Origin: Termitidicoccus mucosus | Lineage (GTDB): Bacteria > Verrucomicrobiota > Verrucomicrobiia > Opitutales > Opitutaceae | Direction of reading: 5' to 3' | NCBI RefSeq assembly: GCF_038725785.1 | Contig: NZ_CP109796.1 | Location: 6,448,501 to 6,512,500, forward strand | Length of the DNA stretch: 64,000 nt | Shown: piece after piece, positions 16,349-45,292 of the stretch | Layout of the letters: each line of letters opens with the position of its first letter | How positions within the stretch are numbered: the first letter of the stretch is position 1 | The notes under the pieces: model-generated | Database searches by the model: none | What the model was told of the DNA's origin: nothing | What the model saw: the letters and a program-made list of their open reading frames with translations, nothing else | Program-made: the position numbers and the translations under genes

Positions 16349-17230
<882 letters not shown>

Positions 17231-17232
17231 TT

Positions 17233-17402: not shown

Positions 17403-17463
17403 GGAAGCGGCGGCGGTGTGCCGGGGCAAATGTGGCATGGAAAAAGCAATGCGAGGAGGCGGA

Positions 17464-18453
17464 ATGAGTGTGCTTTCGCTTTCCGAAACGAGCCCGCCGC
17501 GGCCCTCGCTGGAAGAGCGCGCATTGGGCGCGTATCTCGGGTTTGCCGTCGGCGACGCGCTGGGCGCGCCGGTGGAGTTCATGACGCCGCGCGAGATCCG
17601 GGCCACACACAATGGCATCCACGATTCGATGACGGGCGGAGGGTGGCTGCGATTGAGGCCGGGACAGGTGACGGACGACACGCAGATGAGCCTGGCGCTC
17701 GGCGGCGCGATGCTGGCGAGCGGCGGATGGAATCTTCGCGCGGTGGCGGATTCGTTCGTGGGCTGGCTCCAGAGCCGTCCGGTGGATGTGGGCAACACCT
17801 GCCGCCGCGGAATCCGGCGTTATTTGCAGACGGGGACCTTGCGCGGGGCGCCGGCGGAGGAGGATGGAGGGAACGGCGCGTTGATGCGCAACCTGCCGGT
17901 GGCGCTCGGCACGCCGCCGCCGCGGGATGCGGGCGGGACGGACACCGGCGCGGGCCAGGCGGAGGGCGAGGACGCGGTGTTTGCGCAGCGGAGCATCGAG
18001 CAGGCGCGCATCACGCACGGGCATGCGCTTTCGGACGAGGCCACGGTGGCGTTGGGGCGGATGACGCGGATTTTGTTGTCGGGCGGGGAGCGCGGGGATT
18101 GCAGGCGGATCGCGGACGAGCTCGTGGCACGGCACCGGGTGTTTGCGTTTGAGCCGTGGCCGGGAAGGACGAGCGGCTACGTGGTGGACACGGTGCAGAC
18201 GGTGCTGGATGTTTTTTTCCGCGGGGAGACTTTCGAGGCGTGCCTGCTGGATGCGGTCAACCGCGGCGGCGACGCGGATACGAACGGCGCGCTGACCGGG
18301 CAGCTCGCGGGCGCATTGTGGGGAGTCCGGGCGATCCCGGAGCGATGGCTGCGAAAGCTGGACGAGCGGGTGCGCGCGGAAATAAGCGCGCAGGCGCGCG
18401 GGCTGTTGCTGCTGGGCCGGTGGAGCGGCGAGGGCGGCGGCGCGGGGAGATAA
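17464..18453 (+). CDS. draG: ADP-ribosyl-dinitrogenase reductase glycohydrolase DraG
   Basis: 329 residues from the ATG at 17464, chosen because GAGGAGG stands 5 bases before it. ADP-ribosylglycohydrolase motifs: GAYLGFAVGDALGAPVEFM, VTDDTQMSLALG (metal-binding Thr-Asp-Asp), GNGALMRNLPVAL, GGDADTNGALTGQLAGALWG. DraG removes ADP-ribose from the NifH Arg, restoring activity. Divergent from nifH and immediately followed by draT, which settles the assignment over generic ARH-family enzymes. Gene order draG-draT is the reverse of the commonly described draTG order. Confidence 0.9.
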   Translation: MSVLSLSETSPPRPSLEERALGAYLGFAVGDALGAPVEFMTPREIRATHNGIHDSMTGGGWLRLRPGQVTDDTQMSLALGGAMLASGGWNLRAVADSFVGWLQSRPVDVGNTCRRGIRRYLQTGTLRGAPAEEDGGNGALMRNLPVALGTPPPRDAGGTDTGAGQAEGEDAVFAQRSIEQARITHGHALSDEATVALGRMTRILLSGGERGDCRRIADELVARHRVFAFEPWPGRTSGYVVDTVQTVLDVFFRGETFEACLLDAVNRGGDADTNGALTGQLAGALWGVRAIPERWLRKLDERVRAEISAQARGLLLLGRWSGEGGGAGR

Positions 18454-21350: not shown

Positions 21351-22118
21351 TCAGGGGCCGGGCGGGAGGAAGCCGTATTTGGCGAAGACCGCCTGTGCCT
21401 CGGACCCGGCCAGCCAGGCTGCGAACCGTTTGGCGGCCTCCGGAGATTTGCCGGCTTTGACGACGGCCACGGGATAGGTGATCGACGGGCCCTCGGCGAG
21501 CGGGACTTCGACGGCGATTTTCACCTTTTGGGAAATCAACGCGTCGGTTTTGTAAACGATGCCGGCGTCGGCATTGCCGGCCTCGACGGCGGCAAGCACG
21601 GCGCGGACGTTGTCCAGAAAAACGGTCTTCGCCTGCAAGCCGTCCCAGAGTCCGAGTTTGCCGAGATATTCCTTCGAATAGGTGCCGACGGGCACGGTGG
21701 CGGGATCGCCGAAGGCCACGCGTCTGACCGCGGGAGAGGCGAGATCGGACATCGCGGCAACGGGGGCGGGACGGTCGGCGGCGACGACCAGCACGAGCGT
21801 GTTGGCGAGGATGGTCTTGCGCGTGCCGGGGAGGAGGAGTCCGCCGTTTTCGAGCTGATCGACGCGGAGTTCGTCGGCCGAGATGATGACGTCGGCGGGC
21901 GCACCTTCGCGGATCTGGCGGGTGAGGGCGCCGGAGGATGCGAGATTGAAGCGGAGCTTGTCGCCCGTGGCCTTGGCGTAGCCGGGGGCAAGCTCATTGA
22001 GCGCGTCGGAGAGGCTGGCGGCGGCGAAGACGGTGAGGTCGGCGGCGCGCGCGGCGGTGGTGGCGAGGCCGGAGAGGGCCAGCGCGAGGGCGAGCGTGAG
22101 AGTGAGGATGCGTTTCAT
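21351..22118 (-). CDS. modA: Molybdate-binding periplasmic protein ModA
   Basis: 255 residues. Signal peptide with hydrophobic core LTLTLALALALSGLATTAARA. Mature start DLTVFAAASLSDALNELAPGYAKATG, the ModA hallmark; NLASSGALTRQIREGAPADVIISA contains the Ser residues that hydrogen-bond the oxyanion. GNADAGIVYKTDAL is the second lobe signature. Delivers molybdate or tungstate to ModBC. The 48-bp gap to modB contains a GATTTTCGATTTTTGGATTT repeat phrase also seen in the UvrD insertion. Confidence 0.95.
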   Translation of the reverse strand: MKRILTLTLALALALSGLATTAARAADLTVFAAASLSDALNELAPGYAKATGDKLRFNLASSGALTRQIREGAPADVIISADELRVDQLENGGLLLPGTRKTILANTLVLVVAADRPAPVAAMSDLASPAVRRVAFGDPATVPVGTYSKEYLGKLGLWDGLQAKTVFLDNVRAVLAAVEAGNADAGIVYKTDALISQKVKIAVEVPLAEGPSITYPVAVVKAGKSPEAAKRFAAWLAGSEAQAVFAKYGFLPPGP

Positions 22119-23613: not shown

Positions 23614-24747
23614 ATGAAAAAGACCACGCAGGACTTGGCATTACCTTTGCATAAAATGTCCGGCAGGCGGCATGCGCTGGGTTTTTCCCAAGCCGAACTG
23701 GCGCGCCGCTGCGGGGTGACGCGGCAGTTTGTAAATCTGGTCGAATGCGGACGGACGCAGCCCAACGTGCAGGTCGCATTGCGCCTCGCGTCGGAGTTGC
23801 AGACCTCGGTGGAAGAACTGTTCGGCGAAAAGGTGGAGCCCGCCGCCGAGGAGATTCCGGTAAACTTGGTGGCCGAAAACCCGTCCCCGTCCGCGCGCAT
23901 TAATCTGGCATGGGTGTCGCGGCGCTGGATCGGGCACAGGGCCGACACCGCGGCGTCACTGGGCGGCGGATTCCAGGAGGCGGATGCGGTGGCGACAAAA
24001 ACCGGCGGCGCATGGCATGCCCGGGTCGCGCGGGGGAAAATGCTGGCGGACATGCAGCATAACGTCGCGATTGCGGGATGCGATCCGGCTCTGGCGCTGC
24101 TCGTGGACGGACGGATCGGGCCGGGGTTGCCGGGACGCAGCTTCTGGGTGAACTGTGGGAGCGGGCGAGCGCTTGAATTGCTGGCGGGCGGGGCGGTGCA
24201 TGTCGCAGGTTTGCACAGCGGCAATGGCCGGAGGGAGGAAAACCTGCACGAACTGCGGCGGCTCGATCCTCACCGGCGCTGGCGGCTGGTGCGTTTCACC
24301 CAATGGGAGCAGGGATGGATGGTGCGGCCCGGCATGGAAAGAAAGCTCGGCAAGGCGGAAAGCCTGGCGGCGGGCGGTCTGCGGCTGGCCAACCGCGAGC
24401 GGGGATCAGGCAGCCGGAATTGGATAGACGGCCAGTTGCGCGCGATGGGACTGGCCGGCTCGCTGGTGCCGGGCTACGGGAGGGAATTCGAAAGCCACTG
24501 GGAATGCGCGCGGGCGCTGCTGCAAGGCGATGCGGATGTCGCGGCCGGACCGCGGGCGGTCGCCGAGATGACGGGACTGAAATTCGTGCCCGACGGCATG
24601 GTCGCCTTTGACCTGGTCATTCCGCGGGCATTGCTGGAGCTGCCGCGCGTGGCGGCGTTGCTGGACGGATTGCGCACGCGCCGGCTGCGCGGCGAGATCG
24701 AAAGCCTGCCGGGCTATCGCGCGGACGAGGCGGGGATGCTGGTGTGA
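23614..24747 (+). CDS. XRE regulator fused to periplasmic-binding-protein-like domain (Mo-responsive candidate)
   Basis: 377 residues. Residues 15-70 are an HTH_3 domain (RRHALGFSQAELARRCGVTRQFVNLVECGRTQPNVQVALRLASELQ). The rest is a PBP-like ligand domain of the type found fused to MerR/XRE helices and related to ModA-like proteins (IAGCDPALALLV, HVAGLHSGNG, DGQLRAMGL, DVAAGPRAVAEMTGLKFVP). Divergent from the porin-modABC operon with only 36 bp between starts; that interval contains CATGT-N12-ACATG, a possible operator. No ModE is seen, so this is the likely regulator of the mod operon. Ligand is inferred. Confidence 0.82.
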   Translation: MKKTTQDLALPLHKMSGRRHALGFSQAELARRCGVTRQFVNLVECGRTQPNVQVALRLASELQTSVEELFGEKVEPAAEEIPVNLVAENPSPSARINLAWVSRRWIGHRADTAASLGGGFQEADAVATKTGGAWHARVARGKMLADMQHNVAIAGCDPALALLVDGRIGPGLPGRSFWVNCGSGRALELLAGGAVHVAGLHSGNGRREENLHELRRLDPHRRWRLVRFTQWEQGWMVRPGMERKLGKAESLAAGGLRLANRERGSGSRNWIDGQLRAMGLAGSLVPGYGREFESHWECARALLQGDADVAAGPRAVAEMTGLKFVPDGMVAFDLVIPRALLELPRVAALLDGLRTRRLRGEIESLPGYRADEAGMLV

Positions 24748-29787: not shown

Positions 29788-31176
29788 TCACCACATGTTG
29801 AGGATCCATTCCCTGTCTTTTTTATACTCCATGTCGGCGAACAGGGTGTTGGCCATGGCCTCGGCGAGCCACAGGGCCCCGGCGTAACCGACCACGGGAT
29901 GCCGGTAAAGGCCGGCGCGGTCGTAAGTGGGGAAACCCACGCGAAGCATGGGGATGTTGTATTCGATGCTGGTGAAGCGCCCCTTGGAATGCCCGAGGAT
30001 GAGGTCGAGCTCGATTTTGCCTTCCTTGATTCGCTTTTCGAGTTCCCAGAGGTCGGCGTTGGTGACGATCTCCATCTCGAAATCGATGTTCGCCTGCAAG
30101 GCTTTGATCCGGGGATCGTCGCCATAGAAGGCGTTGTCGTCGCCGAGCAGGAGCAGCACGGGTTTCATCTCCATGTCGATGCAGGCCTCGGCCAGGCCGA
30201 TGACGAGGTCGGGGTTGCCGTAGATGGCGACTTTTTTCTCGGCGAGGAACATGTGGGTGACATCGGTGATCGCATCGATGGCCACGCCGCGCTCCCGCAC
30301 GAGCGATTCGGGGATCGGCTTGCCCGTGAGCTTTTTCAGGTTCTGGAGAAAGGTGTCCGTGTTGCGGATGCCGATCGGGGTCGGGCCGATGATGGTCGGG
30401 ATGCCGAACTCGGTTTCCAGGTGCCGGGCGGCCTTGGCGCATTCGTAGCGGTTGAGCGCGAGGGTGCCGAGGGCGTTGGCCGTGCCCTGCATGTCCGCAA
30501 TGGTTGTGCCGCCGTGGGAGACGAAGTTGCCATGGGGCATGAGCGGCGAGTCGAAGGACTCGATCTCGAAGAGCACGGTCGCGTCGATCTGCATCTCGGC
30601 GAGGAGGTGCTTGAGCGCCTTGACGTCGCCGGGGTTCACCCAGCCGGTGAACAGGTTGAGCTTGCCGTTGGGCTCTGTCTTTTGGGCGAAGTGGGCGATG
30701 AAATCCCGCGTGGCGACGTCGTAGCCGCTCACCATGCTGCCGACGAAGCTCGGCGTGTGGATCGCCACGAGGTGCACCTCGCGGCCGGCGTATTTTTCCT
30801 GGAGCAGGCCGCGGTTCAGCTTGGAGACGACGCCGTCGATGTCGTCGCCGATGACCTCGGTGCAGCAGGTGGAGATGATCGGCACGACCTTCACGTCCGG
30901 ATAGCGCATGAGGAGCACGTCAACCGCCTCCTCGACCCGGCGGACCGCGCCGAACACCGCGCCCTCCTCGTGAACGGAGGACGAGGCCAGCTCGAAGCTT
31001 TCCTTGAAGTGCTGGGAGAAGATGAGGCGCACGAACATGACGCAGCCCTGGCCTCCGTGGACGATGCCGATGCAGTCCTTGATGCCGATGCTGGCAAACT
31101 GCGCGCCGGCGGGCTGGCAGGTGAAGACCGGGTTGATGATGCCGGCCCGTTCCCGTGGTTTTAATTCGCAAAGCAT
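29788..31176 (-). CDS. anfK: Iron-only nitrogenase beta subunit AnfK
   Basis: 462 residues. P-cluster region FTCQPAGAQFASIGIKDCIGIVHGGQGCVMFVRLIFSQHF near residues 19-58; STCCTEVIGDDIDG near 125-138; ASSSVHEEGAVFGAVRRVEEAV is characteristic of AnfK/VnfK. Partner of AnfD in the alternative dinitrogenase. Start gap of 16 bp to anfG. DNA is a diverged paralogue of nifK at 13004. Confidence 0.96.
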   Translation of the reverse strand: MLCELKPRERAGIINPVFTCQPAGAQFASIGIKDCIGIVHGGQGCVMFVRLIFSQHFKESFELASSSVHEEGAVFGAVRRVEEAVDVLLMRYPDVKVVPIISTCCTEVIGDDIDGVVSKLNRGLLQEKYAGREVHLVAIHTPSFVGSMVSGYDVATRDFIAHFAQKTEPNGKLNLFTGWVNPGDVKALKHLLAEMQIDATVLFEIESFDSPLMPHGNFVSHGGTTIADMQGTANALGTLALNRYECAKAARHLETEFGIPTIIGPTPIGIRNTDTFLQNLKKLTGKPIPESLVRERGVAIDAITDVTHMFLAEKKVAIYGNPDLVIGLAEACIDMEMKPVLLLLGDDNAFYGDDPRIKALQANIDFEMEIVTNADLWELEKRIKEGKIELDLILGHSKGRFTSIEYNIPMLRVGFPTYDRAGLYRHPVVGYAGALWLAEAMANTLFADMEYKKDREWILNMW

Positions 31177-31192
31177 GATATTTCGCAGTGTT

Positions 31193-31543
31193 TCAGTAGT
31201 GTTGGTCGGTGAGCTCCGCGTTGAGGGAGCCGGTGACGGTGAGGAAGTCCATGCGTTCGTGGACGGCTTTCATGAGCGCCCTGATTTCGTCCCTGGCGAG
31301 GGTGTTGATCCACTCGAAGCGGGCCTTGTAGGCCTCGGCCAGGCAGACGGCGTCCACCCAGTAGCAGCGGTCGGCGGGTGTGTCGGTCTTGGGCTTATCG
31401 CCGCACAGCAACTCGGTGGTTTTGCCCAGGATGCCCGCGTTCTGGTCTTTGCGGTCCCAGGCGCGGGAGTGGAACTGCCAGAGGCATTTCTTCATGATGT
31501 GGTCCACCAGTTGGTCCATTCTGGTTTTCGTGAGGTCGTCCAT
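31193..31543 (-). CDS. anfG: Iron-only nitrogenase delta subunit AnfG
   Basis: 116 residues. Characteristic delta-subunit sequence: LVDHIMKKCLWQFHSRAWDRKDQNAGILGKTTELLCG and RCYWVDAVCLAEAY. Present only in V and Fe-only nitrogenases, where it gives the extra subunit of the hexamer and is needed for activity. Its presence between anfD and anfK excludes a molybdenum enzyme for this locus. Confidence 0.96.
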   Translation of the reverse strand: MDDLTKTRMDQLVDHIMKKCLWQFHSRAWDRKDQNAGILGKTTELLCGDKPKTDTPADRCYWVDAVCLAEAYKARFEWINTLARDEIRALMKAVHERMDFLTVTGSLNAELTDQHY

Positions 31544-31558
31544 AAGAGGTGCGTGGGT

Positions 31559-33239
<1,681 letters not shown>

Positions 33240-33268
33240 GGTGTCTATGGCCAATTTGATGCAGGTGC

Positions 33269-34189
<921 letters not shown>

Positions 34190-34651: not shown

Positions 34652-35656
34652 CTACGGGGTGGGGAAGACGAGAGGCTGCTCGATGCGCCGGCCATGGCGG
34701 AGCGCCTCGCGGAGGGCTCCGAGTTGTTTGTCGAGGTGGACGAGGCGGCGGTGATTTTCTTTTTCGGCGGCGGTGGGTTCGATCACGTCGCTTACGGCGC
34801 CGTTGCGAATGACCAGGCGGCAGGTGCCGGAAAGGGCCAGCAGGGGGTCGTGCGTGGAGAGGAGCACGATTTTGCCCTGGTCGGTGAAAAGCTCCAGCGC
34901 GCGCGTGCGGTCCACGCCGGCGTTTTCGATCTCGTCGATGAGGATCACCGGCTTCGGGCTGAGAAAGGCGGCGTCGGCGATCATGAGCGCGCGGGACTGT
35001 CCGCCGCTGAGCTGGGTGAGCTCGGTTTCCGGACCGAAAGGCTCGCCAGCCATGCCGACGGCGGATTCGAGCACGCGGCGGACCGCGCTCTCGGCCTCGT
35101 GCGGCGGAAGCGCGCGGCTTTCCGCATGCAGGCGAAGAAAAGCGGCGACCGGGAGGTCCATGATGAAATTCATGTTCTGCGTGATCTGCGCCACGATTTT
35201 TCCCTCGCCCGAGAAGCGCGATTCCGGGTCGGGCGCGCGGCCGTTGACGCGGACCACGCGCCCGGTCGGCGTGTCGCCTTGGGCGAGGCATTCGATGTCG
35301 GCAAGCAGGCGGCTTTTCCCCGCCCCGGTCGGGCCGACCAGCGCCACGATGTCGCCGGGCCGCAGGCAAAGAGCATGCCGCTCGGGGGCGCCGGATTTGT
35401 CGCGGCCCGGCAGAATCTCAAGCGTGTCCAGCACCGGTGCCGTGCCCGCATGCGCGGAGGCCGAGAGAAACGCCGCGAGCGCCTCCCGCAGGCGGTCGTA
35501 GTCCCAGCCGGCCTCCGCGCGGATCGCCCAGGGTTGCGCCTCCCACCACGAGCGCAGCGTGCGGTGGCCGTCCAGGCCGGGCAGGTGATTCAGCGCGAGG
35601 AAATCCCCGCAGCGCGGATCGGAGAGCGGGATGTCGGGGCCGGGCGTATCAGACAT
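34652..35656 (-). CDS. Orphan ABC ATPase domain protein (third gene of cytosolic trio)
   Basis: 334 residues. Walker A VALVGPTGAGKS near residue 130, Q-loop ITQNMNF, signature LSGGQSRAL, Walker B PVILIDEIENAG and H-loop LLSTHDPL. No membrane helices and no ABC permease beside it. The N-terminal 100 residues are not ABC-like (CGDFLALNHLPGLDGHRTLRSWWEAQPWAI). Overlaps the GTPase gene by 8 bp, so the trio is translationally coupled. Domain form suggests ATP-driven assembly, storage or release of a cargo rather than import; cargo unknown. Confidence 0.78.
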   Translation of the reverse strand: MSDTPGPDIPLSDPRCGDFLALNHLPGLDGHRTLRSWWEAQPWAIRAEAGWDYDRLREALAAFLSASAHAGTAPVLDTLEILPGRDKSGAPERHALCLRPGDIVALVGPTGAGKSRLLADIECLAQGDTPTGRVVRVNGRAPDPESRFSGEGKIVAQITQNMNFIMDLPVAAFLRLHAESRALPPHEAESAVRRVLESAVGMAGEPFGPETELTQLSGGQSRALMIADAAFLSPKPVILIDEIENAGVDRTRALELFTDQGKIVLLSTHDPLLALSGTCRLVIRNGAVSDVIEPTAAEKENHRRLVHLDKQLGALREALRHGRRIEQPLVFPTP

Positions 35657-36356
35657 GGGTCGCGGGTGCGCCGGGGATCTGGATTTTGCGCAGCGTGCCG
35701 TTCTGGAAATCGGCGCCGAGGCGCGTTTCCCCGAGGCAATAGGAGCAGACCGCCGCCGGCACGGAGAAGCGCAGGCGCCCGCCCGTGACCGGCGCGTCGT
35801 CCGGGGCGGCGCGCCAGAGTCGGCTGGCCTCCCAGGCGCCCTGGCCGGTGATGCCGTTGACGAAGAGGATGCGGGCGCGGGAGTTGACCTGTCGTATCCG
35901 AAACGCGAATACCTCGCGCTCGGCCTGGCTCACGATGTCGCCCTTGGTGACGAGGACGAGGTCGGCGGTGCGGAGCATGGGGCCGACCTTGCGCGGCGTG
36001 TCCACGCCGGCGAGGAGGTCGAGCACGCAGACGGCGAGGTGGCCGCGGAGGTGCGGGGCGCAGCGGTTGCACAGCCCCGCGCTTTCGCTCACGAGGAGGT
36101 CGAGCCGCTGCCGCGCGCCCCACGCGACGCAGTCCTCGATGTTGGTGATGAAAAAATGATCCGGGCAGAAATTGGCCGACAGCCCCGTGAGGACAGGAAA
36201 TCCGGCTGCCTCGAATGTCGCCGCGTCGCCCGTCGTCAGGCAGTCGAATTTCACCACCCCGGCGCGCAGGCCGTCGTCGCGCAGCCAGCGCAGCGTCTTG
36301 AGGATGACCGCGGTTTTTCCCGACGAGGGCGGTCCGGCCACGGTGACGAGCTTCAT
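35649..36356 (-). CDS. HypB/CobW-like P-loop GTPase with Cys pairs (second gene of cytosolic trio)
   Basis: 235 residues. P-loop VAGPPSSGKTAV at residues 6-17. Metal-binding-like Cys pairs in SESAGLCNRCAPHL (near 95) and VCSYCLGETRLG (near 208), and LVTKGDIVSQAE as a G4-type motif. HypB and UreG relatives insert nickel or other metals into enzymes by GTP hydrolysis. Overlaps both neighbours by 4-8 bp. The metal and client are unknown. Confidence 0.78.
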   Translation of the reverse strand: MKLVTVAGPPSSGKTAVILKTLRWLRDDGLRAGVVKFDCLTTGDAATFEAAGFPVLTGLSANFCPDHFFITNIEDCVAWGARQRLDLLVSESAGLCNRCAPHLRGHLAVCVLDLLAGVDTPRKVGPMLRTADLVLVTKGDIVSQAEREVFAFRIRQVNSRARILFVNGITGQGAWEASRLWRAAPDDAPVTGGRLRFSVPAAVCSYCLGETRLGADFQNGTLRKIQIPGAPATHV

Positions 36357-37384
36357 GCGGAATAACCGCGCGCGAAAGCCGCATTGAGCATCGTGCTCAT
36401 CGCCTCGATGTCATGGTGGCGCACGAAGTCCCAGCCCACCCAGCGCAGGCGTCCGGGCAGCGGGGGCGAGCCGGCGCGGGAGGGCGCGAAGCCGATTTTC
36501 GCCAGATGCGCGGCCCACTCCCCGCCGCAAAGATAGTTGGCAAACAAGTCGGACTCGGGGCGCGCGTCGCGGCGGCGCAGGATGTATTGGGGCGTCAAAT
36601 ACGCGCCCTCCTCGGGCCAGACGACGCGCGTGTTTTCGCGGTGCGGGCAACTGGCGGAGAAGAACCCGGGCAGCAGATAAAGTGCCGCGCCGCGCGGGTT
36701 GGACGAACCGGCGGTCTTGGCCATTTCCGCCGGGTGCATGAAATTGCGGACATTCGCGCCCAAGGCGGCGAGAGCCTTCTCGCCGTGGTCGCGGTAGAGG
36801 CCGAAAAGGATGGACTCGTGAATGCTCTCGGGGCTGCCGCTCACGATGACATCGCGCCGGAACCTCGGGTGGAGCACATCGGCCCAATTGCGGGGCGTGG
36901 GCCGGTCGCCGAGGCGGTTCAGGTCCACGAGGATGATTTCGAGGTTCGCGCCATAGACGCGGTGAAAACCCTGCGGGTCAACCAAGCCGGCCTCCCGGAA
37001 TTCCGGGCGCAACTCGTCACCGGCGGCAATGCGCGCGAAGGTTTTGTCGTCGTCGAGCCAGCGGCGCACGAATGCGGGACGGTTGAAGTCGCCGAACCCG
37101 GTGTCGGAAATCAAGCCGGGCAGTTCGCCGGCCTCGGTCGTTTGCCAAAGGCCGTCATAGATGTCGTCGCCGTGGCAGCCGCCTGCCATGTACCATTGTG
37201 GCGCGGGATTCATGGCGCGGCAGCGCGCATGGAACCGGCGGCGGAGTTCGGCCCGCACCGGGCAGGGCGCGTAACCGAGATAATCGAGGGCGCGACGCCG
37301 GCCGGTCTCGTGCTCGGGAAACGAGGGTTCCAAGTCAAGCAGGTCGTCGTCGGATGATGGTGTGGCGATGGCGGTGTTTTCCAT
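36353..37384 (-). CDS. Binding-protein-fold protein without signal peptide (first gene of cytosolic trio)
   Basis: 343 residues. The fold resembles extracellular solute-binding proteins of Fe(III)/spermidine ABC systems (NWADVLHPRFRRDVIVSGSPESIHESILFGLYRDHG, NPRGAALYLLPGFFSASCP, WPEEGAYLTPQYIL). The N-terminus (MENTAIATPSSDDDLLDLEPSFPEH) lacks a signal peptide, so the protein should be cytosolic. Followed at 4-bp overlap by the GTPase and then the ATPase. It could hold a metal complex before GTP-driven transfer; this is inference. Confidence 0.72.
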   Translation of the reverse strand: MENTAIATPSSDDDLLDLEPSFPEHETGRRRALDYLGYAPCPVRAELRRRFHARCRAMNPAPQWYMAGGCHGDDIYDGLWQTTEAGELPGLISDTGFGDFNRPAFVRRWLDDDKTFARIAAGDELRPEFREAGLVDPQGFHRVYGANLEIILVDLNRLGDRPTPRNWADVLHPRFRRDVIVSGSPESIHESILFGLYRDHGEKALAALGANVRNFMHPAEMAKTAGSSNPRGAALYLLPGFFSASCPHRENTRVVWPEEGAYLTPQYILRRRDARPESDLFANYLCGGEWAAHLAKIGFAPSRAGSPPLPGRLRWVGWDFVRHHDIEAMSTMLNAAFARGYSA

Positions 37385-37476: not shown

Positions 37477-37998
37477 TTATGGCGTGGGCGCAAGCGGGAT
37501 CACCTCGATGGTGGAGATCTGGCGCACGCAGCGTTTGCCGCATTTGTCCTGGTCGAGGATCAGCTGGAACGGCCCGGTTTTGTCGGGCAGCGGCGCCCCG
37601 TCCTGCCGGATGGCCAGCACGGGATTTTGTTTGCTGATGGATTTTTCGAAGTCGGCGAGCGCGAACACCACGGTGTAGCCGTCGGCCGCGGTCACGCGCA
37701 CCGCGCTCGACAGGATCGCGCGCATCGGGGCGCCCTTGCCGAGCCGGACGCCGACGGCGGAAAATACCGCCGCCGGATCGACCCCGGCGTAGCGGTGTTT
37801 TTTTCCGTGGTGCTCCACCTCGGTTTCGATCTGCGGGAGCGCGGCGAGTTCGGCCACGGTGATTTGCTTCCGCGTGTCGCCGCTGACCAGCGTGAGCGCG
37901 TCGGCGGAATCGGCGGCGCGAAGCGCGGGAGCGCCCAGAACAATAATATATACGGCGAGCGAGAGGAAGAAACGACGGTATGTATTCATGGCATGCAT
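37477..37998 (-). CDS. Small exported molybdopterin-oxidoreductase-fold (SUOX-like) protein
   Basis: About 173 residues from the ATG at 37998 (another in-frame ATG at 37989). Signal peptide: FFLSLAVYIIVLGAPALRAADS. The mature part resembles the molybdopterin-binding fold of sulfite-oxidase-like enzymes (ITVAELAALPQIETEVEHHGKKHRYAGVDPAAVF and RVTAADGYTVVFALADFE). The cofactor-ligand Cys region is not seen, so the catalytic function is doubtful; it may only bind a pterin or metal. C-terminal CGKRCVRQ holds a Cys pair. Located 6 bp after the binding-protein gene upstream. Confidence 0.65.
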   Translation of the reverse strand: MHAMNTYRRFFLSLAVYIIVLGAPALRAADSADALTLVSGDTRKQITVAELAALPQIETEVEHHGKKHRYAGVDPAAVFSAVGVRLGKGAPMRAILSSAVRVTAADGYTVVFALADFEKSISKQNPVLAIRQDGAPLPDKTGPFQLILDQDKCGKRCVRQISTIEVIPLAPTP

Positions 37999-38003
37999 AT
38001 GAT

Positions 38004-39116
38004 TTATTCGGATTGGTTTTGCAGGCAGCAGTTGGCGGGAGGCGGCAGCGGCAGGCGTGACTTTGCCAGCAAGTCGCGCGCATCCCATTCACTTAATTCG
38101 CAATGATAAAAGAGGCGGTAGAAAGCGCGCGTCTCGGCCACCATGTCGTGGGAAACACGGTCGGGGTAGAGAACCGAGGCCAGCCATTTGAGGCCGATGA
38201 GACGGTTGACGGAAGGCGGGCGGTCGAACCAGTTGAACGGCTCGACCGGGATTATATAAACCCGCTTGCTGGCCACGGCCGGGACACGCTGCCATGCGGG
38301 GTCGGCCAGCCATGCGGGATCGCCCGATCCGGCATCGTCGGGGCAGACGAGAATGACATCCGGCCGCCCGGCTATGATGTGCTCCATGGAGACGGAGGCA
38401 TGCCGGGAATGCTCGACCATGTCGTCGCGGATGATGTTTTCCGCGCCGAGCAAATCGAGCAACTCGGCATGCAGCGAGCCCTTGGTGTCGGTCTGGAGGC
38501 CGCGCGGCCCCTGGGCATAATAAACCCGGACCGGCCTGCCCGGCGGAAGCGAACGGGCGAGGGCATGGGTGTCACGCATCACGGCACGGCAATAACCGGC
38601 CAGTTGCGCGGCCCGCTCCTCCGCGCCGAGGGCGCGGCCGACGAGCTCGCAGGTTTCGGCCAGCTCGTCGAGGCGTCCGCCTGCGAGAAAAACAGGAATG
38701 CCGGTCTGGGTCTGGAGGCGGTTGGAAAAATCGACGGCGGTGGGATTGTTATAGCCGACCGAGAGGATGACATCGGGCCGCGCGGCGATCAGCGTCTCGC
38801 GATTGGCGTTGCCCGCCGGTCCGAACCAGTTTCCATAGGCGGGAAGATCGCGCACGGCGGGGAGCAGGAACCGGGCGGCCTCCGGTGTGAGAGGCAGATT
38901 CCAGCCGATCATCTTTTCCGGGGCGAGTGCGTAGAGCAGGATGCTGGCGACCGGACTGGTGCCGTAGGCGCGGCCCACGCCGGCGGCGGGCAGCGGGAGC
39001 ACGCGCCCGGCTCCGTCGGTGAACGGGCGCGTGGCCGCCGCCTGCGCGTGCAGCGCAACCGCCGCCGCCGCGAGGACAAACGCCCGGCGCATGAAGGAAA
39101 GCGTTCGCATGGACAT
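38004..39116 (-). CDS. BtuF/FepB-type periplasmic binding protein
   Basis: 370 residues. Signal peptide near MRRAFVLAAAAVALHAQAAATRP. Helical-backbone binding fold: VYYAQGPRG, RPDVILVCPDDAG, IIPVEPFNWFDRPPSVNRLIGLKWLASVLYP, RNETL-type. It belongs to the family that includes iron-siderophore, B12 and the Haemophilus MolA molybdate-binding protein. Three bp after the TonB receptor stop on the same strand; the permease and ATPase are a little further upstream. Substrate: probably a metal chelate or molybdate; unresolved. Confidence 0.8.
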   Translation of the reverse strand: MSMRTLSFMRRAFVLAAAAVALHAQAAATRPFTDGAGRVLPLPAAGVGRAYGTSPVASILLYALAPEKMIGWNLPLTPEAARFLLPAVRDLPAYGNWFGPAGNANRETLIAARPDVILSVGYNNPTAVDFSNRLQTQTGIPVFLAGGRLDELAETCELVGRALGAEERAAQLAGYCRAVMRDTHALARSLPPGRPVRVYYAQGPRGLQTDTKGSLHAELLDLLGAENIIRDDMVEHSRHASVSMEHIIAGRPDVILVCPDDAGSGDPAWLADPAWQRVPAVASKRVYIIPVEPFNWFDRPPSVNRLIGLKWLASVLYPDRVSHDMVAETRAFYRLFYHCELSEWDARDLLAKSRLPLPPPANCCLQNQSE

Positions 39117-39119
39117 ATG

Positions 39120-41180
39120 CTAGAAAGAATAGCGCACGTTTGTATAGACAGTGCGTCCCCTGCCAGGGTAGGCGGTGTCGTAATAACGGGTGTCGCGCTC
39201 AAAAATGTTTTCGATTCCGATACTCAGGACGCAATTGCTGCCGGGCGGCGTGAATGATGCCTTCAGGTTGTAGAGGGCGAATCCCCCTATCTTCTTGCCC
39301 GCGCTGTTGCTGTAACGCCACGAGCGCGCCTCCATGGAGGGGACAATGGCCAGCCACCGCCACGGTTGGATTTTTGCATGAAGGCTCCCGGAGTGCCGGG
39401 GGGCCTCGGTCAGTTTGTTCGCCGGATTCCTGAGATCCTTCATGTAGATAAAAGTATAGCTGCCCCCGGCGGAGAGGATGGAGTTTAATGAATAATCCAC
39501 GCCGAGTTCGGCGCCGTCCTGCTGCACGTCACCGGACACATTATACGACTGGCGGACATCCATGCCGTCGAGCTTTTCGGGAAGGACTTTATAAGTGATC
39601 TTGTCGGTCACGCGGCTGAAGAAGACATTGGCCGTGACGGTGAGGCCGGAGACCGGCTCGCCGATGTATCCGATTTCATAGTGCATGGCGGTCTCGGGTC
39701 CGAGGTCGGGATTGGGGATGGCGATGAGGTTGGGCGTCATGTGCGCCGAGTAGCGGTCCTTGATGGAGGGCATGCGGGTCTTGCGGGCGATGGTGGCATG
39801 AAAGGTGTTTTTCTCATCGAGCTTGAAAAACACGCCCGCCTGCGGATTGAAGCTGTCCATGGTGATGAGCCCCAGCGTTTGCTCGCCGGCTTTTCTGGTG
39901 TCGCGCCAGTCGTAGGCGACGCCGGCCTGGAAGTCCCATTTGGACGTAATGTGGAATGTGTCCTCGATGCCCGCCGAGACGGTCACGTCCTTGTAGGTTT
40001 CCTCGTTGTCCTTTTCCCCGGTGACGAGTTCGTAATATTCATAATGACGGTCATATTTATAATGGACGACGCCCTTTAATATGTTTTTGGGGATCAATTC
40101 CGTGCCGAGTTCGAGCGATCCACCGTAGGAATAATCATCATAAATGCTGGGATCGCGGCCGACACCCATGATGAGCGTGTTGTCGTATTTGTCGAAAAAC
40201 ACGCGCGGCTTCACATAACTTTTGTCCCCGAGCCGGGTGTTCGAAATGAAATAGACGGTCTCCTTGTTCCATTCCGGCCAGCGCCAGCTCGTGAAGGAAT
40301 AGCCCTTGCCTCCGACCTTCGGGCCTTTTTCGCCCTCCTGATGCTGGTAACCGATGGCGTATTCGTCGGTCGCGTTGGGGGCGAAGCCGGCCTTGGCGCT
40401 GAATTTCCAGTCGCGGGTATGATAGTTCTGCCGGTCCGTCCCGTTGTATTCCTCCGCCATTTTTATCCAGTCGCGCTCATAAAAGGAAACGCCACCCTGC
40501 GCATACCATTTGCCCTGCCTGGTGCCGATGTTCAGCGAGCTTTCCACGCCGTCCCCGGTGGAAACGCCCGCGCTTATATTGCCCTCGAGGGGGCGCGTGG
40601 GGCGGCGGCTGACGAGGTTGATGGCACCGCCCATGGCATTGGGGCCGTAAATCACGGAACTGTAACCCTTGGCGACATGGATGGACGCGACATCGAACGT
40701 GGTGAAGCGCCCGAGATCGAGATTTCCGTCGTAGGGAATGTAGGCGGGGATGCCGTCAATATAAATGGGCACCGACAGGCTGCCGAAGCCGCGGACATAC
40801 GCGAAGGTTTCATAACGGTTGCCACTGCCGGGGGAGAGCGTGACGCCCGGCGTGGTGGCGAGGGCTTCGGCCACGGTTTTCTTTTCGAGCAGCTCTATCT
40901 TGGATGCCGTTATCGAGGTTTCCATCTGCTCGGAGGGCAGAGGGCGCTCCCCGTAAACAGTCAGCGTGCCGAGCTGGAAAACAGGCTCCTTGCTGGCGGA
41001 GGCGGCGGTTGTGGAGGTCGTGACCAGTGTGCCTGACGCCGTGGCGCCGGTGGTCTGCGCGATGGCGGCGCGGGGCGCGGCCAGAAGCGAGCACAGGGCG
41101 AGAAGCGAAGGCACGGTTTGCGATGAGACAATGGCGCGCAGGCGGAATGTCCCCCGCGCGGCGATAAGGGAAGACGGCAT
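39120..41180 (-). CDS. TonB-dependent outer-membrane receptor
   Basis: 686 residues. Signal peptide up to AIAQTT; TonB-box-like region LGTLTVYGERPLPSEQ; plug domain (VAEALATTPGVTLSPGSGNRYETFAYVRGFGSLSVPIYIDGIPAYIP, GAINLVSRRPTRPLEGNISAG); 22-strand barrel; C-terminal aromatic strand VYTNVRYSF. Energised by TonB to import a large or scarce ligand. Followed by its binding protein gene. The gap before it (41181-41617) is 437 bp and holds a repeat element, so it has its own transcription unit. Ligand not identified. Confidence 0.85.
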   Translation of the reverse strand: MPSSLIAARGTFRLRAIVSSQTVPSLLALCSLLAAPRAAIAQTTGATASGTLVTTSTTAASASKEPVFQLGTLTVYGERPLPSEQMETSITASKIELLEKKTVAEALATTPGVTLSPGSGNRYETFAYVRGFGSLSVPIYIDGIPAYIPYDGNLDLGRFTTFDVASIHVAKGYSSVIYGPNAMGGAINLVSRRPTRPLEGNISAGVSTGDGVESSLNIGTRQGKWYAQGGVSFYERDWIKMAEEYNGTDRQNYHTRDWKFSAKAGFAPNATDEYAIGYQHQEGEKGPKVGGKGYSFTSWRWPEWNKETVYFISNTRLGDKSYVKPRVFFDKYDNTLIMGVGRDPSIYDDYSYGGSLELGTELIPKNILKGVVHYKYDRHYEYYELVTGEKDNEETYKDVTVSAGIEDTFHITSKWDFQAGVAYDWRDTRKAGEQTLGLITMDSFNPQAGVFFKLDEKNTFHATIARKTRMPSIKDRYSAHMTPNLIAIPNPDLGPETAMHYEIGYIGEPVSGLTVTANVFFSRVTDKITYKVLPEKLDGMDVRQSYNVSGDVQQDGAELGVDYSLNSILSAGGSYTFIYMKDLRNPANKLTEAPRHSGSLHAKIQPWRWLAIVPSMEARSWRYSNSAGKKIGGFALYNLKASFTPPGSNCVLSIGIENIFERDTRYYDTAYPGRGRTVYTNVRYSF

Positions 41181-41617: not shown

Positions 41618-42508
41618 TCAACGCGCGAACAGGGCGCGGTTGTCCGCCGCCATGACGGCGGCGGCATCGGGCCAGTCGAGGCGGTGAAGCGCGAGGCGGC
41701 AGCGGCGTTTGCCGGAGCCCGCGAGCGACGCCTCCCAGGGTGGCGCGCCGGAGTCGCGCTCCTCCAGCGCGAGCGTGGCCCGGAGCGGCGTGCAGCCGGT
41801 CGCGAGTTCCCAGCCTTGGGCAAAAAAGAGGCTGCCCGCGAGGCGCGAATGGAGCCCGGGGGCATTGCGCCGGGTTCCAAGCCGTTTCATCGCGGCCAGT
41901 CCCGCGCGCAGGCCGAGCGCGAACTCGGGGCCGGTGGTGTCCCAGTGCAGCCAGCGGGTGGCGCGGGTCGCGTCGTCGTCATGCGCGAGAACGGAGGCCC
42001 AGCCCAGCGGCGTGAGCGCGCCGGGAAAGGCGTCGAATTGCGGCACATAGACTTTGATATCCAGCAAGGGCGTGCCATCGAGGGCATCGAGTCCCCGCAC
42101 GGTGAGCAGAGTGCCGCGGCGTTCCAGCAGCTCGACGATGCACGAGCCGAGTCCCGACGGACGGCATGGCGCGCGCGAACTGAAAACTCCCTGCCCGGAG
42201 CGGTCGTCGCATTCCGGCAGCACCAGCGGCGCCGTGCCATCTGCGGCCCAGCCGCGGCCGCGCAGCCATTCCGCGGAGCGGTGCTGGTGATAAATGACCC
42301 AGAGGTGGGAAAAATATTCCACGCCTTTCAGCGCGTCGAGCAGGTCGTCGCGCAGACGCAGGCGCGCCGGAGTTTTATAATCGCAATGGTCGGAGACCGA
42401 GCGCCAGGGCGATTCGATGACGCCGATCGGCGTGAGCACGATGGGCGAGGGGAGGGCGGCCGGGCGGGATTTGGCGCGCGGATGCGCGTCCGGTGGCGGG
42501 GACGCCAT
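41618..42508 (-). CDS. TrmO-family SAM-dependent methyltransferase-like protein
   Basis: 296 residues. The N-terminal 160 or so residues are TrmO/TsaA/YaeB-like: IVLTPIGVIESPWR, GVEYFSHLWVIYHQH, DDRSGQGVFSSRAPCRPSGLGSCIVELLERRGTLLTVRGLDALDGTPLLDIKVYVPQFD. The family methylates threonylcarbamoyl-adenosine in tRNA, but related proteins accompany metal ABC systems. The C-terminal 130 residues are not recognised. The ATG at 42508 lies inside a dispersed repeat copy, which supplies the first codons. Confidence 0.75.
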   Translation of the reverse strand: MASPPPDAHPRAKSRPAALPSPIVLTPIGVIESPWRSVSDHCDYKTPARLRLRDDLLDALKGVEYFSHLWVIYHQHRSAEWLRGRGWAADGTAPLVLPECDDRSGQGVFSSRAPCRPSGLGSCIVELLERRGTLLTVRGLDALDGTPLLDIKVYVPQFDAFPGALTPLGWASVLAHDDDATRATRWLHWDTTGPEFALGLRAGLAAMKRLGTRRNAPGLHSRLAGSLFFAQGWELATGCTPLRATLALEERDSGAPPWEASLAGSGKRRCRLALHRLDWPDAAAVMAADNRALFAR

Positions 42509-42515
42509 CGCTCCC
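42484..42515. repeat. Short dispersed GC-rich hairpin repeat, copy D
   Basis: GGTGGCG-GGGA-CGCCATC keeps pairing in the stem (T-A and G-T) despite changes from copy A. It contains the ATG of the TrmO-like gene. Confidence 0.7.
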
Positions 42516-42531
42516 GGGCTTCGTTTCGGTT

Positions 42532-43323
42532 TCAATTGATGATCGGAGCGCATACGCGGATGGGGGAAGACGCGGCCCCGTCCCCGGAGGAGGGAAGGTC
42601 GGAGACGACAAACGGGACGTGATAGACCTCCTCGAGCGCCTCGGCCGTGAGCGCCTCGGCCGGCGCGCGGGCCGGGGCGAGCCGGCCGCCGCGCATGATG
42701 GCGACCCGCGTGGCGCAGCGCAGCGCGTGCTCGGGATGATGCGTGGCCATCAGGATGCCGATGCCTTCGCGCGCGAGCCGGCGCAGCGTTTGCAGGACGC
42801 GCACCTGGTTGCCGAAGTCGAGGCTGGATGCGGGCTCGTCGAGCACGAGATAGCGCGCCTGCTGCGCCAGCGCGCGGGCGATGAGGACCATCTGCCGCTC
42901 GCCTCCGCTGATCCGGGTGTAGAGGCGTTCGGCAAAGGCGCCGAGGCCGACCAGCGCCAGCGCCTCGTCCGCGGCCCGCCAGTCGGCGGAGCGGGGGCCG
43001 CCCCAGACCGGCCATTGCGCGGCGCGGCCCATGACGACGACGTCGCGCGCGCTGAACGCGAAAACGGGGGCGTGCGCCTGCGGCACATACGCGAGCAGGC
43101 GCGCGCGTTCGCGGGCGCGGCGGTGCGCGAGGGGCGCGCCGTCCAGCCGGATGTCGCCCGCGAGGGGCGGCAGGATGCCGGCGAGGGTTTTCAGCAGCGC
43201 GGTTTTTCCCGAGCCGTTGGGCCCGAGCAGGCACACAAACTCGCCCGCGCGCACGCCGAGCTCGATGTCGCTGACCACGGGGCGCCGGGTGTAGCCGCAG
43301 GAAAGATTGCGAAGGTGAAGCAT
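42532..43323 (-). CDS. FecE/MolC-type ABC transporter ATP-binding protein
   Basis: 263 residues. Walker A GPNGSGKTAL, signature ISGGERQMV (the ISGGE form is typical of siderophore/B12-class ATPases), Walker B YLVLDEPASSLD and H-loop THHPEH. Start at 43323 (MLHLRNLSCGY). Forms an importer with the permease just upstream. Also possible for MolBC-like molybdate transport. Confidence 0.88.
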   Translation of the reverse strand: MLHLRNLSCGYTRRPVVSDIELGVRAGEFVCLLGPNGSGKTALLKTLAGILPPLAGDIRLDGAPLAHRRARERARLLAYVPQAHAPVFAFSARDVVVMGRAAQWPVWGGPRSADWRAADEALALVGLGAFAERLYTRISGGERQMVLIARALAQQARYLVLDEPASSLDFGNQVRVLQTLRRLAREGIGILMATHHPEHALRCATRVAIMRGGRLAPARAPAEALTAEALEEVYHVPFVVSDLPSSGDGAASSPIRVCAPIIN

Positions 43324-43361
43324 GACGCGGAAGGAGGCTTGCGGGCGGGCTTGGCGCGGGC

Positions 43362-44489
43362 TCACTCGGCCCAGGTTTTTTGCGAGCGCCGCAGCATGAC
43401 GAGAAACACCGGCGCGCCGCACGCGCAGGTGACCACGCCGAGCGGAAACTCCACGGCGAACAGGCAGCGGGCGAGGTTGTCCGCCCAAAGCAGGCAGATA
43501 CCTCCGATGAGCAACGACGAGGGCAGCAGGTCGCGGTGGTTCGGCCCGACCCAGAAACGCGCCGCATGCGGCACCATCAGGCCGATCCAGCCGATGATGC
43601 CCGCGACGGCGACGGTGGCGGACGTGATGAGCGTGGCGCCGACCAGCACGAGCACGCGCACCGCCGTCACGGGGACGCCGAGCGAGCGCGCCTCGTCCTC
43701 GCCCAACGCCATCAGGTTGAGCGGCCAGCGCAGCAACAGCAGCACCGTCACGCCGAGCGCAAGCGGTGGAAACAGCAGCGCGAGGTCCGCCCGCGTGGTC
43801 GCGGCCAGGCTGCCCATCAGCCAGAAGGTGATGGCCGGGAGCTTGGAATACGGGTCGGCCAGTATTTTAATCACGGATACACCGGCCATGAAAAGGCTGC
43901 CGACCACCATGCCGGTCAGGACCAGCCGCAGGGTGAAATGCCCGCCGCCGCCCACGGCGCGGCCGAGGCCGCAGGTGAGGATGACCGCGGCCAGCCCGAA
44001 AAGAAAGCCGAGGGTCTGCACGCCGACGACCGGCAGCGAAAGCGTGAGTCCCAGCGCCGCGCCCAGGGCGGCGCCGGCGGACGATCCCAGGATGTCCGGG
44101 GAAACCAGGGAGTTTCTGAACAATCCCTGGTAGGCCGCGCCCGCCATGGAAAGCCCGGCGCCGACGCCCAGCGCCGCCAGCAGGCGCGGCAGGCGGATTT
44201 CCCAGAGCAGGGACACGACCGTGCCGCGGTCCGTGACGGCGTCGGCGGCGAACCGGGGAAACCAGAGTTGCAGGATGTCGGCCCAGGCCAGCGGGTGCGC
44301 GCCGACGCGCAGCGAAACGAGCGCGCTGGCCGCCAGCAAGGCGAGCAGCACCGGCGTGCGCGCATGCGCGGCGAGGCGCCCGGGCGGTTTTTTCCGCCGG
44401 CCGGGCATCCCGGTTGCGGAGGATGTGGAGGCCCGCGGCTTGTCCGGGCCGGCCTCCGTCGTTTCCGTGGCAGCTCGCGTCGTGATCAT
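43362..44489 (-). CDS. FecCD-family ABC permease
   Basis: 375 residues. FecCD motif GLSMAGAAYQGLFRNSLVSPDILGSSAGAALGA and a coupling helix near GVSVIKILADPYSKLPAITFWLMGSL; about ten hydrophobic segments. The family transports iron-siderophores, cobalamin and, in HI1470/1471 (MolBC), molybdate or tungstate. Start at 44489 overlaps the DUF364 stop by four bases (ATGA), so the two are coupled. N-terminal 45 residues are polar and unusual. Confidence 0.88.
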   Translation of the reverse strand: MITTRAATETTEAGPDKPRASTSSATGMPGRRKKPPGRLAAHARTPVLLALLAASALVSLRVGAHPLAWADILQLWFPRFAADAVTDRGTVVSLLWEIRLPRLLAALGVGAGLSMAGAAYQGLFRNSLVSPDILGSSAGAALGAALGLTLSLPVVGVQTLGFLFGLAAVILTCGLGRAVGGGGHFTLRLVLTGMVVGSLFMAGVSVIKILADPYSKLPAITFWLMGSLAATTRADLALLFPPLALGVTVLLLLRWPLNLMALGEDEARSLGVPVTAVRVLVLVGATLITSATVAVAGIIGWIGLMVPHAARFWVGPNHRDLLPSSLLIGGICLLWADNLARCLFAVEFPLGVVTCACGAPVFLVMLRRSQKTWAE

Positions 44490-45292
44490 CGGGCGGCGGC
44501 GCGTTCGATTTGGACCATGCGGGCTCCGTGCTCGAAAAAGGCATGCCGCCCGCCTTCCTGCACGACGGGCCAGACCTCGTCCGGATTTTCCACCACCAGT
44601 CCGGCGAGAAGATCGACGCCGAATGCGAAGAGCCCGGGCGCGAGCGGCGTGGTCGGGCCGGCAAGACACACGAAGGCATCGCGCGCAAGCTCCAGCAGGC
44701 GCGGAAGCGTTTTGTTGATCAAGGTGGTCCCGGTGATGAAGACGTAATCGCTTTCCGGCAAAACCGCCTCGCACGCGGGATCGGGCAGGTCGCCGGATTG
44801 CGGGCGGCGTTCGAGGATGGAGAGCTTGCAGGCGCGCGCCACTTCCTCGAGCCCGTGGAAATGGCCGATGACCGCCACGCGGCGCCCGGCGATGCGCGGA
44901 AGCATTTGGGTGAAGACGCTGGCGCCGGTTTCGGAGAAAACACATCCGGCGCGCTCCGCCCGCTCCCGGGCGCGCGCGGGCTGGTTATGATGGGCGTTCA
45001 GCGCGGCGATGCCGAGCGCCGCCTCGCCAAAATCCCACGACCGCGCGAGGGCCGCGATCTCGCGCAGCGGGCTGCCGGCGACCCGGCCGGCCGGGCCGAT
45101 GCGGACCGGCGTTTCCCGCGGCGACATGGCCAGCCCGAGCCCGCCGTCGGCGCGGACGCCAAACCAGTTGATTCCGGCCGCAAAGGCATCGACGCGGGCG
45201 TCCTCCGGGAGACCGGAGACCAGCACATCATAAATGGACCAGAAGGAAGACGGGAGGGAATGCGCGGCGCGCGCGGCGGATGAATCGGACAT
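44486..45292 (-). CDS. DUF364-family putative heavy-metal-chelation protein
   Basis: 268 residues. DUF364 features: NWFGVRADGGLGLAMSPRETPV, RMLPRIAGRRVAVIGHFHGLEEVA and YVFITGTTLINKTLPRLLELA. Structures of relatives show a Rossmann-like fold with an enolase-N-like domain and were proposed to chelate heavy metals; the function is unproven. It opens a four-gene unit with permease, ATPase and TrmO-like protein. Confidence 0.82.
   Translation of the reverse strand: MSDSSAARAAHSLPSSFWSIYDVLVSGLPEDARVDAFAAGINWFGVRADGGLGLAMSPRETPVRIGPAGRVAGSPLREIAALARSWDFGEAALGIAALNAHHNQPARARERAERAGCVFSETGASVFTQMLPRIAGRRVAVIGHFHGLEEVARACKLSILERRPQSGDLPDPACEAVLPESDYVFITGTTLINKTLPRLLELARDAFVCLAGPTTPLAPGLFAFGVDLLAGLVVENPDEVWPVVQEGGRHAFFEHGARMVQIERAAAR

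Follow-up and report, generated by a model that had tools for sequence, protein, structure and literature searches.

A soluble binding protein, GTPase and ABC ATPase encoded beside nitrogenase genes of Termitidicoccus mucosus look like an unnamed system of anaerobes

Results

Three overlapping genes without a family name

We analysed a stretch of 64,000 nucleotides from Termitidicoccus mucosus (Verrucomicrobiota, Opitutaceae; NCBI RefSeq assembly GCF_038725785.1, contig NZ_CP109796.1, positions 6,448,501 to 6,512,500 of the forward strand), which is hereafter called the window and whose own numbering is used below. Three minus-strand genes at its positions 34652-37384 encode a solute-binding protein (SBP), a GTPase and an ABC ATPase, here referred to as the trio. 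The trio is a genuine, widespread and, as far as the literature searched shows, so far undescribed gene unit, and it looks like an unnamed system of anaerobes. Its genes, in order of transcription, are as follows.

36353-37384, minus strand: SBP of 343 amino acids (PF13343), predicted to be cytosolic and of FutA/FbpA fold; no export signal; Cys41 near-invariant
35649-36356, minus strand: G3E-type GTPase of 235 amino acids (PF02492); CPDH 64-67, CNRC 96-99, C110 and CSYC 204-207 conserved
34652-35656, minus strand: ABC ATPase of 334 amino acids (PF00005) with an N-terminal extension and without a permease

The SBP and GTPase genes overlap by 4 bp (36353-36356) and the GTPase and ATPase genes by 8 bp (35649-35656), in agreement with a first-pass annotation of this DNA, made from the sequence alone, which had described overlaps of 4-8 bp. 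All three proteins were placed by Pfam: the SBP by SBP_bac_6 (162.8 bits, cut-off 24.6), the ATPase by ABC_tran (49.1 bits, cut-off 25), and the GTPase by cobW (CobW/HypB/UreG; 40 bits, cut-off 20.7), a match above the gathering score that makes it a G3E P-loop GTPase. NCBIfam supplied a name for none of them; it had no match for the SBP and matched the ATPase with many ABC models, all far below cut-off. The anti-phage models of PADLOC gave partial matches to the ATPase alone (best 43.9 bits) and none to the GTPase or the SBP at E<=0.001; a role in phage defence was not adopted.

GTPase and ATPase form a conserved core

The closest relatives of the window trio are found in Opitutaceae and other Verrucomicrobiota. 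Across 288 Verrucomicrobiota genomes, a full-length relative of the GTPase scoring above 280 bits is present in five; the other 26 GTPase matches reach at most 59 bits, and the three that were aligned resemble UreG or HypB. Among genome contigs, at least 587 stretches fit the search pattern and at least 494 encode a relative by tblastn, from which the best 80 loci, ranked by similarity to the query, were retained. Their titles name Verrucomicrobiota, Chlorobi, Bacillota, Geobacter-type bacteria, Deferribacteres, Bacteroidales, Proteobacteria, Krumholzibacteriia, Cetobacterium, Acidobacteria and methanogens, among others. None of 13 pattern matches on viral contigs proved to be a relative. On plasmids, 27 records were found, and one of the 20 matches listed exceeds 50% identity. 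This record, NZ_CP084075.1 of Fusobacterium vincentii, is filed as plasmid pSB055A and is chromosome-like in its size of 2.1 Mb and in its genes.

The genome-wide search for co-occurrence that the first-pass annotation had proposed bears out the trio as a unit, with a separate ATPase gene in 76 of the 80 loci and an SBP gene in 65. Three of the four loci without a separate ATPase encode GTPase-ATPase fusions, namely L038 of a Puniceicoccales metagenome-assembled genome (MAG; 632 amino acids) and L076 (C. puniceum) and L083 of Clostridium (508 and 514 amino acids), and the fourth, L056, stops at a contig edge. Both domains were recognised by Pfam in the L076 fusion. Identity to the window proteins is 55-79% for the GTPases and 41-68% for the ATPases; the SBPs of other phyla share 19-34% with the window SBP, except for that of L041 (43%). 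In L048 an SBP gene flanks the GTPase-ATPase core on both sides, and in several loci without an SBP, DUF364 genes lie beside the core. GTPase and ATPase are thus the conserved core, and the SBP is a variable part that is sometimes doubled or missing.

Some genomes carry more than one copy. Two or three diverged GTPases occur in G426 (loci L135, L136 and L137) and G290 (L069 and L110), in contexts that differ in SBP, DUF364 and FecCD genes. At L133 (G477, contig C35, 229501-249500), a divergent GTPase-ATPase-SBP set at 9611-18049 runs directly into genes for nitrogenase-like NifH and component 1 proteins, after which come Peripla_BP_2, FecCD and ABC genes.

We found no description of the trio in the literature searched, which covered few subscription papers and no bioRxiv preprints. 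It is not mentioned in the available parts of PMC2954201, PMC9164220, PMC10418091, PMC9765008, PMC13056359 and PMC6147048.

A putative metal site in the GTPase

In 40 aligned GTPases, C64, P65, D66, H67, E91 (the glutamate of the G3 motif), C96, C99, C110, C204 and C207 are invariant. Six of these are among the eight cysteines of the window protein (39, 64, 76, 96, 99, 110, 204 and 207), and the two pairs that the first-pass annotation had picked out, CNRC and CSYC, are invariant in both members (C96/C99 and C204/C207). The Cys-Pro pair aligns with the CPH motif of UreG, with one residue inserted to give CPDH. The same cysteine and histidine align with a Cys and a His of one HypB-like protein, in which NMVCP lies under GLCNRC. 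Nothing in the UreG rows compared corresponds to CSYC or C110. Beyond the P-loop region, the solved structures matched by the GTPase sequence are UreG and HypB; RecA chains match over the P-loop.

UreG and HypB are G3E metallochaperones whose action is gated by GTP, according to the available part of PMC9164220. The window GTPase nonetheless belongs to neither as defined by curated families, with 47 bits against a cut-off of 121.2 for the HypB equivalog TIGR00073 and 30.6 bits against 204.2 for the UreG equivalog TIGR00101. The CxCC motif of COG0523, also described in that part of PMC9164220, is absent from the window GTPase sequence. These results are consistent with a putative metal site in which ligand positions of the UreG/HypB type, Cys and His of the switch region and a third Cys in the G3 region, appear to be kept and extra cysteine pairs added.

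A ferric-binding fold without export or permease

The AlphaFold model of the window SBP, built with 57 sequences, has a pLDDT of 90.5 and a pTM of 0.88. A fold search with this model returned FutA1 and ferric-binding proteins as best matches (Z 20.5, rmsd 3.6, 281 aligned residues), and the SBP, as modelled, has a binding-protein fold of the FutA/FbpA class. By aligned ranges, its near-invariant Cys41 may lie near FutA1 residue 55, in a loop that we take to be where FbpA and FutA have iron ligands. An N-terminal DUF1858 domain is present in all four SBPs scanned from other loci and is lacking in that of the window. The ATPase motifs are conserved in 31 aligned members; Walker A and B, the signature and the Q- and H-loops are all present, with the sequences AQxxQNMNF (Q-loop), LSGGQSRALM, LIDEIENAG and THD. 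A fold search with the model of a GTPase-ATPase fusion gave ABC-type proteins among the 50 matches listed.

Export was judged by simple hydropathy of the first 60 residues; in this count and in that of transmembrane (TM) neighbours, L112, which duplicates L036, enters as a further locus. An export-like N-terminus was seen in 2 of 81 SBPs, 1 of 88 GTPases and 2 of 88 ATPases, and the same test flagged 30 of 36 Peripla_BP_2 proteins and 24 of 26 ModA proteins, the exported comparison proteins of the same loci. In 9 of 92 loci, at least one of the two closest genes on the same strand encodes a protein with five or more predicted TM segments; in five of these loci it is FecCD (L041, L042, L075, L080 and L131). 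Such loci are what one would expect if the ATPase and SBP were ordinary importer parts serving a nearby permease and the SBP had been misjudged as cytosolic. They are few, as are the export-like SBPs; moreover, the FecCD permease of the window has an ATPase of its own, and GTPase-ATPase fusions exist. We regard this explanation as extremely unlikely. The first-pass annotation had claimed that signal peptides are missing and that the ATPase lacks a partner permease, and both claims hold beyond the window: neither an export signal nor a permease was found in most homologous loci examined, and the outcome it had named as a refutation thus did not occur. By these predictions the SBP is cytosolic and the trio has no permease partner in most loci.

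The nitrogenase link is confined to one of two groups

We looked for nifH in 50 carrier records, comprising the genomes of 49 loci (isolates first, then mostly high-ranking MAGs) and the Fusobacterium record. A nifH match above cut-off was found in 38 of the 50; the background is 27 of 288 genomes for Verrucomicrobiota and 26 of 245 for Clostridia.

In the GTPase tree (102 rows; a quick tree with no bootstrap, in which 29 rows, 23 of type A and 6 of type B, lack a nifH label), a clade of 26 rows with an SH-aLRT of 96 includes 19 of the 24 carrier genomes that are nifH-negative. We call it type B. All rows outside it, including that of the window and the divergent copies L123 and L131-L133, are termed type A, a set that need not be a clade. 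Many of the genomes are drafts, and G477 is counted in both types. NifH is encoded in 42 of 48 type A genomes, which span several bacterial phyla and a methanogen (exceptions G335, G477, G322, G449, G305 and G311), and in 1 of 20 type B genomes (G579; Fisher p 9e-11, kinship ignored). The tree requires 6 changes of the nifH label; when the labels were shuffled 200 times, the average was 20.8 and no shuffle gave fewer than 16. In the SBP tree of 66 loci, also a quick tree, the 19 type B rows that it contains group as a single clade (SH-aLRT 100). The link to nitrogenase is thus strong for type A and absent for the type B clade, which mostly stands alone. The first-pass annotation had proposed that the system serves nitrogenase or another metalloenzyme; a link to nitrogenase is supported for the group of the window and not for the family as a whole, as type B carries the same trio. 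A family-wide function in molybdenum or nitrogenase is rejected on the evidence of type B and F. vincentii.

In the window, the genes directly downstream of the trio are nitrogenase genes that we read as anf (see below), and the trio is also near anf-type genes in the Pelosinus loci L102 (P. fermentans JBW45) and, judged by its like gene order, L104. These three loci would fit a specific factor for an alternative, iron-only or vanadium nitrogenase. AnfG/VnfG was found in 15 of the 50 carriers, against nifH in 38 of the same 50, and such a specific role is highly unlikely; alternative nitrogenase as sole client is rejected on this count. NifQ is present in 4 of the 50, all titled as Pseudomonadota genera. 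All four still have the GTPase, and a simple replacement of NifQ by the trio was therefore rejected.

Metal importer genes near the trio

The neighbouring genes of the window were read from profiles. Those on the upstream side of the trio are listed first.

37477-38019, minus strand: small protein that looks secreted, with a weak match to PF00174, a molybdopterin-binding oxidoreductase domain (23.2 bits, cut-off 24)
38004-39116, minus strand: periplasmic binding protein, Peripla_BP_2 (PF01497)
39120-41180, minus strand: TonB-dependent receptor
41621-43567, minus strand: TrmO-type open reading frame (local profile), overlapping the low end of the following ABC ATPase/FecCD pair
42532-43488, minus strand: ABC ATPase, an importer part apart from the trio
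43362-44945, minus strand: FecCD permease, an importer part apart from the trio
44486-45292, minus strand: DUF364/DUF4213 protein, 'putative heavy-metal chelation' (Pfam)
29788-34180, minus strand: nitrogenase genes directly downstream of the trio, read as anfK, anfG, anfD and anfH (nifH profile and local profiles)
21354-22118, minus strand: ModA-like gene (local profiles)
23614-24744, plus strand: regulator with HTH and PBP_like parts (local profiles)
9272-17173: nif-type genes (local profiles)

The small open reading frame at 37477-38019 sits between the Peripla_BP_2 gene and the trio, with 92 bp between its end and the start of the SBP gene. In the downstream nitrogenase stretch, NifH alone was tested with a curated profile, and the genes are read as anf because they are similar to those of L102, whose AnfG passes PF03139. 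Within 25 kb, the region 9272-34180 thus contains two nitrogenase gene sets, one nif-type and one anf-type, together with the ModA-like gene and the HTH/PBP_like regulator. The TonB receptor and binding-protein genes and the nitrogenase genes that the first-pass annotation had placed on either side of the trio were all recovered by profiles, the anf label by way of similarity.

A wider scan covered about 10 kb around the trio in the 80 carrier loci, with our own profiles and thresholds. Of 39 control stretches fetched from carrier genomes, 7 under 15 kb were left out, and a further one, L159, was dropped from the remaining 32; it overlaps the trio locus L042 and had supplied all control matches to FecCD, Peripla_BP_2, DUF364, TonB and regulators. 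Thirty of the 31 controls come from non-random places, mostly the starts of early contigs. Against these controls, genes for ModA, ModB, ModD or ModE lie near the trio in 26 of 80 loci versus 0 of 31 (p 9e-5), and FecCD or Peripla_BP_2 genes in 31 of 80 versus 0 of 31 (p 8e-6), kinship being ignored in both. One ModA, one ModB and one ModE-type protein among representatives were confirmed by NCBIfam; the ModD-like protein fell below the modD cut-off. The type B loci with ModA or ModB nearby are L055, L060, L066 and L068. By type, the neighbours in 75 type A loci are Fec in 35, Mo in 22, nif in 11 and DUF364 in 11; in 26 type B loci they are Mo in 4 and Fec, nif and DUF364 in none. Genome context has earlier tied DUF364 to importers of iron, tungstate, vanadium and molybdate (PMC2954201, available part).

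The FecCD and Peripla_BP_2 neighbours of type A raise the possibility of an iron relay, in which the trio would unload iron chelates from adjacent TonB/FecCD importers and pass the iron to iron-rich enzymes, nitrogenase above all. The FutA/FbpA fold of the modelled SBP is consistent with this, and iron would suit those carriers that lack molybdenum genes. It would leave the enrichment of ModA/B/D/E unexplained, however, and in one sequence alignment the trio SBPs have 'lP' opposite the tyrosine pair of SfuA. In FbpA/FutA-type proteins such a pair binds Fe(III). An iron relay is rather unlikely in our estimation, though far from negligible.

We considered that the cargo might be set by the SBP. 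On the SBP tree of 66 loci the context labels change 11 times for Mo and 10 times for Fec, and on the GTPase tree 10 and 12 times. As the changes are alike on both trees, the type of importer nearby does not follow from the SBP, and this idea was rejected.

Regulators with HTH and PBP_like parts were seen near the trio in 10 of the 80 loci and in none of the 31 controls, as might be expected if the complex sensed metal or redox state and passed on a signal instead of a metal. The trio itself has no DNA-binding or kinase part, and we hold a sensor to be very improbable.

Companions of the type B trio

Few genes recur beside the type B trio. A small protein with two CxxC motifs is encoded directly downstream of type B trios in L114 (6205-6444), L121 (11208-11447), L125 (11424-11696) and also L101, the hosts being a Verrucomicrobiota genome, Clostridia and a Deferribacteraceae MAG. 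Two members match HypA (PF01155) below its cut-off of 28.9 bits, with 20 and 19.5 bits, and a third has no match. A flavodiiron-type protein is encoded near the type B trio in L126, L128 and L129.

Hybrid cluster protein (HCP) is encoded within five genes of the trio in L099, L121 and L125. It is present in F. vincentii and in all 14 Clostridia carriers, which include both types, versus 101 of 231 non-carriers (Fisher p 1.6e-5, kinship ignored). These observations, together with the sub-threshold HypA matches beside the trio in L114 and L121, would fit a trio that, in type B above all, matures or repairs a complex Fe-S enzyme, for example HCP. HCP needs no trio, however, as it occurs in the 101 non-carrier Clostridia and in E. 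coli records, and it was not recognised among the 22 clusters that recur in the first 86 loci, part of which were identified. Such a role seems quite unlikely. HCP is common without the trio, and we therefore treat it as no more than a lead.

Discussion

We propose that the three proteins work in solution as a metallochaperone system driven by nucleotides, a metal relay of the cytosol that in type A serves nitrogenase cofactor assembly, with molybdenum the likeliest metal and iron close behind. The SBP would capture a metal species imported by a nearby ModABC (molybdate) or FecCD-type chelate importer. The ATPase dimer, having no permease, may act on soluble partners to drive unloading. The GTPase would then accept the metal on side chains of CPDH, CNRC and CSYC in a GTP-gated dimer, comparable to UreG and HypB for nickel, and hand it to its target. 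For type A, the assembly of the nitrogenase cofactor is the most probable target and molybdenum the most probable metal, iron again close behind; in type B it would be another enzyme, for which HCP is a lead. We estimate the probability of this reading as a whole at roughly 0.43. Its parts differ in strength: the trio probably handles a metal, nitrogenase as the client of type A is slightly better than an even bet, and molybdenum is a tentative choice of metal, at somewhat worse than even odds. More doubtful, and on balance unlikely, is the fuller claim of a new metallochaperone machine made of a FutA-like receptor, a membrane-free ABC ATPase and a G3E GTPase with thiolate sites of its own, forming in one group a route to nitrogenase for molybdenum, perhaps as Mo-S, or iron in anaerobes that mostly lack NifQ, and with a type B client such as HCP.

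Several results weigh against the proposed relay. With regard to nitrogenase, nif genes are not enriched near the trio (10 of 80 loci versus 2 of 31 controls, p 0.50), and the link is therefore one by genome rather than by close position. In the Clostridia sample nifH is found in 4 of 14 carriers versus 22 of 231 others, a weak difference (p 0.048), and 24 of the 27 nifH-positive Verrucomicrobiota have no close relative of the GTPase. Type A is over-represented among the 80 loci, because these were taken in order of their similarity to the query. With regard to molybdenum, FecCD-type neighbours exceed Mod in type A (35 versus 22 of 75), so that iron fits as well. The modB difference in Clostridia is also weak (6 of 14 carriers versus 39 of 231 others, p 0.026). 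F. vincentii has the trio, and its 2.1-Mb record contains no nifH at E<=1e-60 and no MoaA at E<=1e-20; molybdenum is therefore not a universal cargo. A MoaA match is absent in 11 of the 28 carriers examined, several of these 11 being drafts. With regard to mechanism, the SBP tree has no advantage over the GTPase tree in accounting for the importer labels, the SfuA tyrosine pair is not conserved in the SBPs, and the GTPase-ATPase fusion model (pLDDT 75, pTM 0.52) is too weak to define an interface.

We know of no established route by which diazotrophs that lack NifQ bring molybdenum to the assembly of the nitrogenase cofactor. With NifQ in 4 of 50 carriers and nifH in 42 of 48 type A genomes, the trio may bear on such a route. 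If our proposal is correct, an ABC ATPase and a binding protein that act without a membrane would represent unusual biochemistry, and a metal supply that has gone unrecognised would matter for moving nitrogenase into new hosts.

Comparison with known systems

Among characterised systems, UreG and HypB share with the trio GTPase the G3E superfamily and a glutamate in the G3 motif (ESAG). Its Cys-Pro-(Asp)-His lies over the CPH of UreG and its Cys and His over those of one HypB-like protein, and UreG also shares the VIDxxxGxxxPxKxGP stretch. The trio GTPase differs from both in its additional cysteines (CNRC, C110 and CSYC), in scoring far below either cut-off, and in its operon partners, which are an SBP and an ABC ATPase, whereas UreG and HypB serve nickel insertion. 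COG0523/CobW metallochaperones belong to the same superfamily, and the trio GTPase is without their CxCC. The FutA1 and FbpA iron-binding proteins share the modelled fold of the SBP over the whole domain (Z about 20). In contrast to these, the trio SBP has no export signal and no SfuA-type tyrosine pair, has a near-invariant Cys41, and carries an N-terminal DUF1858 domain in the four members scanned outside the window. ModABC and FecBCD importers, which are often encoded nearby, combine the same component types, an SBP and an ABC ATPase, but with a permease and an exported SBP that the trio lacks. The NifQ route of molybdenum delivery would act at the same step as the trio if the molybdenum assignment is right, although the proteins are unrelated. 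The parts of the trio are thus of known kinds, and it is their combination that is new among the NTPase metallochaperone systems, to which the trio probably belongs.

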